Below, piece after piece: positions 32,124 through 38,757 of a stretch of DNA of 64,000 nucleotides. The notes under the pieces were generated by a model that was given only the letters and a program-made list of their open reading frames with translations, searched no databases and was not told the origin of the DNA. The stretch comes from Symmachiella macrocystis (lineage in GTDB: Bacteria > Planctomycetota > Planctomycetia > Planctomycetales > Planctomycetaceae): the NCBI RefSeq assembly GCF_007860075.1, contig NZ_SJPP01000002.1:434001-498000 (forward strand). The letters are read 5' to 3'. Each line of letters starts with the position of its first letter. The stretch's first letter is position 1. Both the position numbers and the translations under genes were made by a program.

Positions 32124-32867
32124 TTATTTGGCCGCACGACGTTGTTGGCGACGGCGGAAGCCGATCAGGCCAATGGCACCGAGGCCCATTAGCACGAACG
32201 ACGAGGGTTCGGGAACCGGATTGACCGGCGGCGGCTCGGTGGTGAAGCTGATGTTGTCGACACCCACACCGCGATCCACTCCGCCCAGATCCAAGACGGC
32301 TTTCACAGCCACGCCGTCGGCGATGACCAGCAGGTTTTCCCAGTTGCCGTCGATCGGCTGATTTTGCAGATCCGCTGTGAAGGAGGTCATGCCAACGATG
32401 TTCGTCATCGCCTCATCGGAGAACAATGTCAACATCGCTGTGGCCGTCGATCCGACGTTCTGTGCTCCCCCATCGACACGGAAGTCGAAGATGTCCATAC
32501 TCAAGTCAGTAATGCCATCGGCAAAGCTGAAGACGTAGTCCGCCGAATTGATTGCGACATCACCCACGGTATCATCGGTGAGGAAGAACCCTCCCGCCCG
32601 ACCGTCGACAGCCTCGTCGTCACTGACTGCGGCGTTTCCACCGGTGGTAAATCCCGTCCTAGGGGGCGTTCCAACCTCAGCAATGTAGGAGAACGCCGAG
32701 TTGGTGTTACCAGTGGTGGAGATCGTGACCAAATTGTCACCCGTGTCGATCGCGCTGTTGATGATCTCCAAGTCGGAGTAGCCGCTTTCGAAGTCAATAA
32801 ACCCAGCCTGTGCATCTAAGCTACAAGCAAGCAATAAGGCCGCACTCAACATCAAACTAGTCTTCAT
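32124..32867 (-). CDS. PEP-CTERM sorting domain protein
   Basis: 247 residues. Signal peptide MKTSLMLSAALLLACSLDAQA; a beta-rich body with many Asp, Gly and Thr (GFIDFESGYSDLEIINSAID, ADYVFSFADGITDLSMDIFD); then the sorting tail VPEPSSFVLMGLGAIGLIGF followed by RRRQQRR. The tail is cut by an exosortase after export, and such proteins go to the cell surface or extracellular matrix. AGGGGAG precedes the start and a strong terminator follows. The body is not matched to a named domain. Confidence 0.92.
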   Translation of the reverse strand: MKTSLMLSAALLLACSLDAQAGFIDFESGYSDLEIINSAIDTGDNLVTISTTGNTNSAFSYIAEVGTPPRTGFTTGGNAAVSDDEAVDGRAGGFFLTDDTVGDVAINSADYVFSFADGITDLSMDIFDFRVDGGAQNVGSTATAMLTLFSDEAMTNIVGMTSFTADLQNQPIDGNWENLLVIADGVAVKAVLDLGGVDRGVGVDNISFTTEPPPVNPVPEPSSFVLMGLGAIGLIGFRRRQQRRAAK

Positions 32868-33631
32868 CGTAACTCTCCCCTTGATTAGCCCAAAACAAAA
32901 AATGGTGAAACTTCAAACGATGTCAATCATGCCGTGACTGATAAACAGGCCGACCCTTTCATCAATCGACAGGATCTCACATAGTTCACCAGTCCAATGG
33001 TTTAGGAAAAATTGTGCCAATTGAGTGCGCATTTGAATTTTCATTCGTAACCCATCGGCTGCCAACACATTACGTTCGGAAAACCATTTGCGCGCACACC
33101 GAGCTTGTTGTGGTACTTGTAAAGAGGACGAGTCACTTGCCTTATCAAAAGGTAAAGCCTGCTTAGCGCGCTGATTTTCAGAAATACTCACATAACACGA
33201 CCAAACGCGCTTTGAGGGTTGACGGAAAATATCGCGCTAACCGTCCGCGACCGATGCAATGCGAATAACAGTGCTGCCAGACACAACACCCACCATCGCC
33301 CTTATTGAACTGACCTGTATTTCGAGCAGTGCGAAACGGAGAGGGCTACAGTGGCGCAAGCGCGGGTCGGCGGCCTGTTGCTGTCAAAGAATTCATCTTG
33401 ATTCTGTGAAGTGAATCGTGATGACTGGTCGGCGCTCGCCATCGTGCGCGCCGATTCAAACAAAGTCCGCGAACCTGATTAGCTGTTTGCGTGTCCGTTC
33501 CGGCGATTGCTAGTGGTACGATCACACTGATTTGTCATACCAACTTTTGTCGACTTCACAGAAAACCCTTGGGAATTCGCGACATTGTCAAAAATTCCGC
33601 ATGACATCTCGAAGTGGACGCTGCCCTAGTC
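32868..33631. other. Long intergenic region upstream of leu leader
   Basis: One 92-codon minus frame (32913-33191) starts with GTG and lacks any motif; I do not call it. Promoter sequence for the PEP-CTERM gene should be at the left end. Nothing else is recognised. Confidence 0.4.
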
Positions 33632-33660
33632 TTGACCACCCGGATCGACGCTTGTACATT
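33632..33660 (+). promoter_or_regulatory. Sigma-70-like promoter of leu leader
   Basis: TTGACC (33632-33637), a 17-nt spacer and TACATT (33655-33660). Transcription would start near 33667, about 35 nt before the leader peptide start codon. Confidence 0.55.
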
Positions 33661-33701
33661 GTGACTACGTAGAAAAACTACTTTTTAAGACATTGAGACA
33701 C

Positions 33702-33767
33702 ATGTTTCGTTTCCTCCTCCTCAACCTTGCTCTTCGACTGTCCTTGCTTACGGAGGGACGGGGTTAG
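33702..33767 (+). CDS. Leucine-rich leader peptide of leuA (attenuator)
   Basis: A 21-codon frame from ATG to TAG with eight leucine codons: a CTC-CTC-CTC run followed by CTT, CTT, CTG, TTG, CTT. Such a run makes ribosome movement depend on charged leucyl-tRNA. A hairpin plus T7 (33801-33837) follows 33 nt later, before leuA. This is the layout of amino-acid biosynthesis attenuators such as leu leaders of Proteobacteria. The ribosome site before the ATG is weak. Too short to be found by usual gene calling; role inferred from composition and position. Confidence 0.7.
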   Translation: MFRFLLLNLALRLSLLTEGRG

Positions 33768-33800
33768 GTTCTATTTCGAGGAATCTTCGCGAATTTGCGA

Positions 33801-33837
33801 CCCTGAGCCCTTATCTCCAAGGCCTCAGGGTTTTTTT
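33801..33837 (+). terminator. Attenuator terminator upstream of leuA
   Basis: CCCTGAG (33801-33807) pairs with CTCAGGG (33824-33830), with two further G-C pairs after one mismatch, followed by T7 (33831-33837). No plus-strand gene ends in the 1.8 kb before it, so its target is the leader RNA. A smaller TCGC/GCGA hairpin lies just before (33787-33800). Confidence 0.75.
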
Positions 33838-33942
33838 GTGGGGCAGGGGAGGTCACCGAACCCAGGGCAACAACCAAACCGTCTTGTTTTTAATTAACGA
33901 CTTACTTTTCACACGATTACCTTTCCCACGGAGAACATTGGG

Positions 33943-35493
33943 ATGTCCGGCGAACAAATCACCATCTTCGACACCACGCTGCGCGACGGCGAACAGTCCC
34001 CCGGCTGTAGCATGAACACCAACGAAAAGCTGGAAGTCGCCGGTGCTCTCGTCGAACTGGGTGTCGATGTGATCGAAGCGGGCTTCCCCATTGCGTCCCC
34101 CGGAGATTTTGAAGCCGTGCAGTTGATCGCACGTGAATTCGGCAGTCGAACCACAATTTGTGGTTTGGCCCGTTGTCGCAACGAAGACATTGACCGGGCA
34201 TGGGAGGCGCTGAAAGATGCCGAGCAAACTCGGATCCATGTCTTTTTGGCAACCAGCAGCATCCATCGTGAGCACAAGTTGAAGATGGACAAAAGCGAGA
34301 TTGTCCAACAGGCGGTCGAGTCGGTGAAACGAGCGGCCGGTTACTGCTCCGACGTTGAGTTCTCACCCGAAGATGCCGCACGGACCGAGTTGGATTTTCT
34401 GTGCGAGGTGATCGAAAAAACAATCGACGCCGGCGCGACAACGGTCAATATCCCCGACACGGTCGGCTATGCAACACCCTCGCAGTTCTACAACTGCATC
34501 GCCCATCTGAAGAAAAACGTGCCGAACATCCACAAGGCCGTGATCAGCACGCACTGTCACAACGACTTGGGCTTGGCCGTCGCCAACAGCATGGCCGCTG
34601 TCGAAGCAGGTGCCCGGCAAGTGGAATGCACAATCAACGGCTTAGGCGAACGGGCCGGCAATGCCGCACTGGAAGAAATTGTGATGACGCTGCGAACGCG
34701 TAGCGACTATTACGGCTGCGATACGCGGATCAACACCAAACGTTTGTTCCCCACCAGCCGGTTGGTTTCGACGATCACCGGCATGCAAGTCCAACGCAAC
34801 AAGGCCATTGTCGGGCAAAATGCATTCGCGCATGAGGCCGGCATCCATCAGCATGGCATGCTGCAGGAACGAACGACCTACGAAATCATGCGGCCGCAGG
34901 ACGTTGGTTTTTCTGGCACAAATTTGGTGTTGGGAAAACATAGTGGACGCCACGCCTTCCGCGATCACATCATCGCCATGGGCTACAAACTGGACGACGA
35001 ATACTTCGAGCAAATCTTCGCTGATTTCATTGCCTTGGCGGATAAGAAAAAAGATGTCTACGATGCCGACATCGCCGCCCTGGTCGAAAAACGCATCGGC
35101 GACACCGGCGATGCGTGGAAGATGATCAGCCTGCACACCTCCGCTGGGACCGGGAGCATTCCCACAGCGACGATTGAACTGCAGTACAAAGACCAAGAAC
35201 CGCAGCGCGACGCCGCCACGGGAGACGGTCCAGTCGATGCAGTCTTCGGCGCGTTGGAACGAATCATCGGCATCTCCGCCCGGTTGCGGGATTACCAAGT
35301 CCGCAGTATCTCGGTCGGCAAAGACGCACAGGGCGAGGTGACGGTCGAAATCGAAACAGGCGGCCGCACGTACTTCGGCAAAGGCTTTAGCACCGACATC
35401 ATCGAAGCGAGTGCGGCGGCGTACTTGAAAGCACTGAACAAAGCCGTCGCCGGAGCAGGCCAACCCACCCCCGCACGCCCCGAAGCGGTGTAA
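33943..35493 (+). CDS. leuA: 2-Isopropylmalate synthase
   Basis: 516 residues, family length. It condenses acetyl-CoA and 2-oxoisovalerate, the first step of leucine synthesis. Catalytic TIM barrel: [11 protein letters not shown] at ~9-19 (Arg and Asp for substrate and metal), [11 protein letters not shown]-like block [11 protein letters not shown], and [14 protein letters not shown] near 200 with both metal His. [14 protein letters not shown] follows. The C-terminal LeuA dimer/regulatory domain ([10 protein letters not shown], then [11 protein letters not shown] and [18 protein letters not shown]) binds leucine as feedback inhibitor. CGGAGAAC precedes the start. A leader peptide and terminator upstream add probable transcriptional control by leucine. 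Confidence 0.95.
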
Positions 35494-35666: not shown

Positions 35667-36467
35667 TTACGACCCCTCGCGATGTATCAACCCATCATCG
35701 AAATAATTAATCGACATCCCCGCATCAATCACCAACCCTTGTGCGTTGATGCCGGATGAACGGGGGCTCATCAAGAAGGCGACCGTGTAGGCGACTTCCT
35801 CGGTGCTGACCGCTTGTTTGCGGAGCGTGGCTTGTTCGGCGTACAGGTAGCTGTCGACGTAGCCCGGGATGCCGGCCGATGCGGAGGTTTTTAACAACCC
35901 CGGGCAGACGGCGTTGAAGCGGACGTGCGAGAACTGCGAGAACGACTTTGCCAAAAAGGCGATCGACGAATCGAGCGCTGCTTTGACCGGGGCCATATAA
36001 CCGTAATTCTCCGCTGCCATCCGCGTGGTGGAAATCGAAATTGCGGCGACGCTGCCGTTTTCTTTATCGAGCAGTTCGCGGAAAGCGTTGCAGATCGCGA
36101 TCAGTGAATAGCAGGAAATGTCGATCGCCTGCAGAAAAGCAGGGCGGGGCGTTTCGTGAAACGGCAGCCAACCGGCGGAGTAATCGGCGAAGGCGATCGA
36201 ATGCACAATGCCATGCAGTTGGGGGTGCGCCGCGGCAATGTCGTCGCGCAACTTGTCGATCTGTTCTTGATGTTCGACATCGCAGACATAGATGGGAGCC
36301 TCACCAACTAGTTTTCGCACCGACTCCTGCCGCGCGGGCGAGCGGACGACATACACAACAGTCGCCCCCGCTTCAGCCAGCACACGCCCGGTATGAAAGG
36401 CGACGCTCTTACGATTGGCGACCCCGAAGACGAGGACCGTTTTGCCCTCAAGTTGCAGAAAATCCAT
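35667..36467 (-). CDS. fabI: Enoyl-[acyl-carrier-protein] reductase (NADH), FabI-type
   Basis: 266 residues, family length. FabI is the last reduction step of fatty-acid elongation. The divergent SDR cofactor motif [20 protein letters not shown] is at ~15-34, HSIAFADY in the middle, and the catalytic Tyr-x6-Lys in [17 protein letters not shown], which is specific to FabI rather than ordinary SDRs (Tyr-x3-Lys). ISISTTRMA and [12 protein letters not shown] also fit. It is a single gene between leuA and the GTPase gene, with 137 nt to the latter. The usual triclosan-sensitive form is plausible. Confidence 0.9.
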
Positions 36468-38683: not shown

Positions 38684-38757
38684 GGGCGATTGACGCAATT
38701 GGTTAGCGTGCTTCCTTTACACGGAAGAAGTTACAGGTTCGAGTCCTGTATCGCCCA
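38684..38757 (+). tRNA. tRNA-Val (anticodon UAC)
   Basis: Folds well: acceptor GGGCGAT with ATCGCCC, D-stem ACGC/GCGT with a GG-containing loop, anticodon stem CTTCC/GGAAG with loop TTTACAC (anticodon TAC), a 5-nt variable loop, T-stem ACAGG/CCTGT with loop TTCGAGT, discriminator A. No CCA is encoded. It is the integration target of the island. Confidence 0.95.

Follow-up and report, generated by a model that had tools for sequence, protein, structure and literature searches.

RESULTS

Promoter, leader frame and terminator upstream of leuA

The window (the whole 64,000-nucleotide stretch of DNA analysed) carries a leuA gene that is preceded on its own strand by a promoter sequence, a short leucine-rich reading frame and a U-tailed hairpin. 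The features are as follows, with the numbered RNA segments given by their proposed pairings:

33632..33660, plus strand: promoter sequence, TTGACC (33632-33637), 17-nt spacer, TACATT (33655-33660)
33702..33767, plus strand: leader peptide ORF, MFRFLLLNLALRLSLLTEGRG and stop, 21 residues with 8 Leu codons
33714..33749, plus strand: candidate control (Leu) codons 5, 6, 7, 9, 11, 13, 15 and 16
33719..33736, plus strand: segment 1, within the Leu-codon stretch, predicted duplex with segment 2 of -21.5 kcal/mol
33751..33768, plus strand: segment 2, last leader codons and UAG stop, predicted to pair with segment 1 or 3
33799..33812, plus strand: segment 3, terminator 5′ arm, predicted to pair with segment 2 (antiterminator) or 4 (terminator)
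33799..33837, plus strand: intrinsic terminator (3:4), formed by a hairpin (33799-33832) that leads into a U7 tail (T7, 33831-33837)
33930..33933, plus strand: GGAG, 9 nt 5′ of the leuA ATG and probably its ribosome site
33943..35493, plus strand: leuA, 2-isopropylmalate synthase, 516 aa, assigned by NCBIfam equivalogs

The LeuA protein scores 786.8 bits against NF002086 (cut-off 532) and 731.1 against TIGR00973 (cut-off 598.7), and it matches L031, a record titled Planctomycetales bacterium, at 90%. By this NCBIfam assignment, the downstream gene serves leucine synthesis and matches the amino acid of the leader. The nearest long ORFs on either side (32124-32867 and 35667-36467) lie on the opposite strand, so leuA is apparently its own transcription unit. 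TTGACC-17-TACATT is the sole sigma-70-like match within 33500-33950, where shuffles predict 0.3, and the leuA transcript would start near 33667.

The eight leader Leu codons comprise three CTC, three CTT, one CTG and one TTG, with CTC at each of Leu5-7. CTC and CTT together make up 6/8 of them, against 1/31 in the leuA of the window and 22/127 in three window genes. The UAG stop (33765-33767) lies inside segment 2. The terminator hairpin has an energy of about -19 kcal/mol; a simple terminator scan of the region returned zero sites, probably because of the loop limit of the scan. The first-pass annotation of this DNA had named the promoter, the 21-residue frame with eight Leu codons and three CTC in a row, the hairpin with T7, and leuA with a ribosome site of its own, and each of these lies where it had been placed, the ribosome site being a likely one.

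The leader module is conserved across planctomycete leuA genes

Comparison with relatives drew on 110 leuA loci, from which two without upstream sequence (L102 and L103) and eight duplicates were dropped to leave 100. Omission of the window's own copy (L002), for which the close relative L001 stands in, left 99 loci, 93 of them planctomycete-like and six labelled Verrucomicrobia, Elusimicrobia, Omnitrophota or Peptoclostridium; L002 was also omitted from the leader-codon, promoter and cognate 2:3 and 1:2 counts below. A few of the 93 bear the MAG labels Kuenenia or Nealsonbacteria; their LeuA identity led us to count them as planctomycetes. In four such loci (L042, L054, L085 and L067) LeuA is 63-73% identical to that of the window, and the labels seem doubtful.

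Our strict rule called for a frame starting with ATG or GTG, of 12-26 residues, at least five of them and 25% Leu, that ends 10-70 nt 5′ of a hairpin that has at least T5 and an energy of -13 kcal/mol or lower. By this rule the module is present at 74/93 planctomycete leuA genes, and at 0/6 non-planctomycete loci, 0/93 reverse strands and 0/930 dinucleotide shuffles; a U-tailed hairpin lies upstream of leuA in 80/93. A looser rule is passed by 82/100 loci, the window included. Twelve planctomycete loci fail both rules: L030 and L072, which have short upstream sequence, L062, which has a Leu frame and no terminator, and L069, L085, L087, L091, L092, L095, L098, L100 and L101, whose LeuA is 61-66% identical to that of the window.

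The relatives are strongly diverged in sequence, and what persists is the identity of the Leu residues and the pairing. Apart from Leu the leader peptides vary widely, and several have just 15 residues. The pattern TTGAC-17-TANNNT, which we picked after inspecting the sequences, occurs within 120 nt 5′ of the leader in 67/80 loci and in 3/1600 shuffles, with a spacing of 17 in 66 of the 67; between the terminator and leuA it is found in just 2/77 loci. An alignment of leuA upstream regions from related planctomycetes had been proposed as a check of the leuA module, and in it the Leu-rich mini-ORF, the hairpin, their spacing and the promoter all recur. Loss of the Leu codons or the hairpin in relatives, which had been named as counter-evidence, was not seen for most of them, but 19/93 regions fail the strict rule. 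The other counter-evidence named, a leuA transcript that starts after 33837, has little backing from the promoter pattern, given its rarity between terminator and leuA.

These controls bear on a chance origin, in which a random Leu-rich frame happens to stand next to an ordinary terminator. Some points do lean that way: in shuffles of the window's 500 nt the Leu-rich ORF alone arose in 99/2000 and its combination with a terminator in 1/2000, and the 2:3 pairing of the window itself is unexceptional (see below). In the same region of L001, the combination arose in 0/2000 shuffles and the ORF alone in 87. Against chance stand its absence from all 930 shuffles of the relatives' regions, while most of those regions keep it, and the fit, seen in three gene families, between codon identity and the enzyme downstream. 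We reject chance on the shuffle and reverse-strand controls, and regard its remaining probability as negligible.

Codon choice in the leader frames

Among 81 leaders, 38.5% of codons in the leader frame encode Leu, and the other two frames have 7.3% and 3.1%; the leaders were partly selected for Leu content, so that codon choice alone is independent evidence. All six Leu codons are used, with a tendency toward the rare ones: CTA accounts for 95/555 leader Leu codons compared with 20/2834 in the leuA genes, and CTT for 124/555 compared with 179/2834. A Shine-Dalgarno-like 4-mer precedes just 18/81 leaders. Taken as comparative evidence, the frame and codon statistics argue that the leader frame is read as protein.

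Such a protein could have a role of its own, the Leu-rich frame encoding a small hydrophobic product and the terminator merely tuning leuA. Membranes can hold short Leu-rich peptides, which speaks for this idea as a matter of general knowledge. We consider it very unlikely, since a preference for rare Leu codons, peptides that diverge outside Leu and can be as short as 15 residues, and sister leaders whose codons change with the gene, to Ile/Val or aromatic ones, all count against it.

Terminator and alternative RNA pairings

Segment 2 (consensus near GGNCUUAGGUU) is similar to the 3′ arm of the terminator and therefore competes for its 5′ arm. The 2:3 and 3:4 pairings are mutually exclusive, as segment 3 is common to both, and segment 1 may pair with segment 2 when it is unshielded by a ribosome. 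In a Fuerstiella-like group, segment 2 lies directly 3′ of the stop and not over it.

Over all 81 leaders, the best duplex that the leader forms with its cognate terminator 5′ arm is stronger than the average over the other arms in 67 (p 4e-9), and it is matched by at most 5/100 shuffles in 49. In the 73 loci with the best duplex close to the stop, a choice that favours the 2:3 reading, cognate 2:3 pairing is better than non-cognate in 63, and cognate 1:2 pairing exceeds expectation in 57.

Covariation was followed in an alignment (A1) of 54 of the 73 eligible loci, with near-duplicates and odd ones omitted. For 2:3, 79.8% of cells are paired compared with 20-58% in slid controls, and 35 cells show double changes compared with 17.3 in shuffles; both values were reached by 0/500 shuffles and two weaker covariation measures by 13/500 and 14/500, all of these shuffles leaving the relatedness among loci in place. 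For the terminator pairing (3:4), 94.1% of cells are paired and 63 show double changes, compared with 16.6 in the same kind of shuffles. The 2:3 duplex of the window itself is not significant (75/1000 shuffles equal it), and that of L001 is equalled by 8/100. Support for an antiterminator in the window is comparative: the alternative pairing that the first-pass annotation could not settle by eye would bring segment 2, over the end of the leader and its stop, together with segment 3, and it shows compensatory changes across relatives.

We also folded the window RNA with a masked ribosome stalled at Leu5, 6, 7, 9, 11, 13, 15 or 16, or placed at the stop. For the stalls on Leu6 through Leu16, the 2:3 duplex is predicted to form ahead of the synthesis of segment 4; a ribosome placed at the stop leaves the terminator as the only structure. 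Folding of the leader, likewise proposed earlier as a check for competing hairpins, agrees with the switch at these stalls and at the stop, but no 2:3 forms at Leu5, and once the RNA is folded in full the terminator hairpin is there at every ribosome position tried. Antitermination would therefore have to be kinetic.

Sister leaders at citramalate synthase and DAHP synthase

A covariance model built from the leuA leaders (R1) gave leuA as its top match in the window's own genome (E 2.4e-11). It also matched upstream of a citramalate synthase gene (E 0.003), with a leader ending in IGEIIIEQPPRP and a stop, and upstream of a DAHP synthase gene (E 0.09), with a leader containing GGWWFGFYFFTPQ:

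G000:C1:3027577-3027652 (L112), minus strand: Ile-rich leader and terminator before citramalate synthase, found with R1
G000:C3:136235-136312 (L113), plus strand: terminator and WWFGFYFF-containing leader upstream of DAHP synthase, found with R1

The first 300 residues of the citramalate synthase score 402.8 bits against TIGR00977, for which the cut-off of 450 applies to the whole protein, and the DAHP synthase passes TIGR01361. The proposal of a leuA attenuator is supported, but its scope was too narrow, as the same genome holds putative sister attenuators with other codons.

To compare gene families, we counted loci with at least five matching residues in the 16 before a terminator, taking in both L001 and L002. 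At leuA, 27/30 loci have a Leu leader, one an Ile/Val leader and one an aromatic leader. At citramalate synthase, 21/30 are Ile/Val leaders, two Leu and none aromatic; at DAHP synthase (30 loci, one too short), 19/29 are aromatic, one Leu and none Ile/Val. For Leu, Ile/Val, aromatic residues and His alike, the count was 0/20 at hisG and 0/25 at trpE-type genes (a set of PF04715 genes, some of them pabB-like), and by the same rule no matching leader was found at leuC (0/18) or ilvB (0/20). At pheA, the count was 0/20 for Leu, aromatic residues and His, and 1/20 for Ile/Val; this one locus (L389, five Ile/Val in 16) we read as noise.

Terminators precede 30/30 leuA, 26/30 citramalate synthase and 23/29 DAHP synthase genes. 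In the controls they precede hisG in 6/20, trpE-type genes in 5/25, leuC in 3/18, ilvB in 4/20 and pheA in 3/20, so that just 21/103 control regions hold the terminator that the counting rule requires. Counted alone, two Trp were found at zero trpE-type loci and two His at two hisG loci. Common residues are less informative, and reach the threshold in the three leader sets at 6-9 loci for Ser/Thr, 3-12 for Ala/Gly and 0-1 for Asp/Glu.

Phe, Tyr and Trp occur together in 18/20 selected DAHP synthase leaders. Cognate 2:3 pairing is better than expected in 18/21 citramalate synthase and 16/19 DAHP synthase loci. Among relatives, segment 2 of the DAHP synthase leaders is mostly in another register, which bears on whether the three leader sets have one origin. 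In other lineages too, R1 matches lie before DAHP synthase with aromatic leaders, at E values down to 6e-9 (L133).

Some further leaders were noted in passing. In another planctomycete lineage, family f48, loci L136, L138, L140, L141, L143, L149, L150, L152 and L164 have Phe/Tyr-rich leaders before DAHP synthase, and the family's segment 2 there is leuA-like, with CTTAGG or similar at the stop. At L144:1501-1577 (minus strand), the leader GRFFFFSNFTT and a hairpin stand before a gene that by eye resembles chorismate mutase/prephenate dehydratase. The aromatic leaders GFYFGYSYFGW and GYYFYSFSYPW (L183 and L184) precede what, by eye, may be a second type of DAHP synthase. At L179 (G160:C9:10760-10831, plus strand), the short frame MAWTNNNNRTLRCRGAA lies 5′ of a hairpin and is a possible Asn leader.

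Judged from their sequences, the leuA, citramalate synthase and DAHP synthase leaders would form a small regulon at pathway entry enzymes. We put forward only tentatively, as a possibility with somewhat poorer than even prospects, that Planctomycetota have an attenuator regulon in which the three entry enzymes share one ancestral scaffold whose control codons were exchanged and which is older than the class split. Under that proposal, leuA would be sensed by Leu, citramalate synthase by Ile/Val, and DAHP synthase by Phe, Tyr and Trp jointly.

Reach in the phylum and relation to Rfam

At gathering thresholds, Rfam reports a single tRNA in the whole window (38684-38757, plus strand), and tRNAs only in 20 related loci, seven of which are leuA loci. 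Within 33600-33950 there were zero matches at E up to 10, Leu_leader and T-box included. No riboswitch, T-box or other Rfam leader family was found in these searches.

Of 294 phylum genomes searched with R1, 108 were matched at E<=0.1. Many of the 60 matches inspected are ordinary terminators, several of them just 3′ of tRNA genes, so the match counts are no census. In the window's own family, 16/17 genomes have a listed R1 match directly 5′ of leuA, and the match of the other (G034) is unlisted by place. We further hand-picked 40 leuA regions, 38 from other families outside the class together with G045 and G054 of the class; these are mostly genomes without an R1 match at leuA, and a slightly looser rule was applied. 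Both parts of the module were found in seven and the Leu frame only in seven, compared with 0 and 22, respectively, in 400 shuffles. At L219, L220 and L221, Leu-rich frames lie 5′ of leuA with no terminator detected, and the endpoint there may be Rho or translation.

This touches on whether the leaders are regulated through another sensor or endpoint, with a protein or a tRNA directly switching 2:3 and 3:4, or with Rho or translation as the endpoint. Its grounds are these deeper relatives and the actinobacterial LEU element, which has a Leu-rich frame and, in passages of its description, mutants that misfit classical attenuation (PMC1262725). This explanation is opposed by the absence of an Rfam match, by the frequency of the U-tailed hairpin (80 of the 93 regions) and by control codons that match the gene; we leave it a very small share of the probability.

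DISCUSSION

Proposed mechanism

We conclude with high confidence that a ribosome-mediated transcription attenuator couples leuA expression to charged tRNA-Leu. The order and spacing of the elements had been said earlier to fit such attenuation, and that fit now has the backing of conserved parts, spacing, Leu codons, compensatory pairing and codons matched to the gene. Translation of the leader, ribosome stalling on it and its response to leucine are what we infer from this evidence.

In our model, RNA polymerase would start near 33667 and make a leader RNA with the 21-codon Leu-rich ORF. When leucine is ample, the ribosome would reach the UAG at 33765-33767 and cover segment 2, whereupon 3:4 would form and the U7 tract would end transcription. 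Under a shortage of charged tRNA-Leu, the ribosome would stall on the Leu codons, holding 1:2 open; segment 2 could then engage segment 3 while segment 4 has yet to be transcribed, and the polymerase would continue into leuA. With no translation at all, 1:2 would form and the terminator would prevail.

Planctomycetes are a phylum known for unusual cell plans, and this work would bring classical attenuation to them. As attenuation needs translation close behind transcription, a working leader would offer a direct and cheap test of coupling in planctomycetes. The leaders matched to Leu, Ile and aromatic amino acids would be of use as ready-made sensors of these, and together the leaders point to a family absent from Rfam.

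Comparison with known systems

Among the closest known systems is the leu operon attenuator of E. coli and Salmonella (leuL, Rfam Leu_leader RF00512), whose Leu-rich leader uses rare Leu codons and whose RNA can form the mutually exclusive pairings 1:2, 2:3 and 3:4, with a U-tailed terminator before leuA. The window leader resembles it on each of these points, its pairings being predicted ones. Unlike leuL, it has no Rfam match, belongs to another phylum, precedes leuA alone and not an operon, and has a segment 2 that spans the leader stop codon.

Full-text literature searches gave, among the matches listed, no report of an amino-acid attenuator in planctomycetes. A passage of PMC2965389 places the leader peptide systems shown until then only in Proteobacteria and Actinobacteria; PMC4833913 counts planctomycete short leader genes for an idea about reinitiation, in passages that leave leuA unmentioned, and the passage concerned in PMC12125101 bears only on the Corynebacterium trp leader.

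According to passages of PMC5794164, the S. aureus ilv-leu attenuator peptide is Leu-responsive and, like the window leader, the system has a leader peptide with Leu codons and a terminator. It differs in preceding ilvD, in its 26-aa peptide with Ile and Leu, and in a proposed antiterminator that sequesters the U tract without disrupting the terminator stem (PMC5794164). The actinobacterial LEU element likewise has consecutive Leu codons in a leader ORF upstream of leuA, but it is described in PMC1262725 as a pseudoknot in whose base stem the Leu codons pair with the ribosome site of leuA, and classical attenuation is judged unlikely there. For the sister leaders, the C. glutamicum aroR-aroF system offers a parallel, with an aromatic leader before DAHP synthase; in the passages on it in PMC11802643 that leader reads Phe-Tyr-Phe, whereas Phe, Tyr and Trp are combined in nearly all of the selected leaders here. 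Set beside these systems, the leuA leader of the window would work by textbook ribosome-mediated attenuation, and what appears uncommon is the putative regulon around it.
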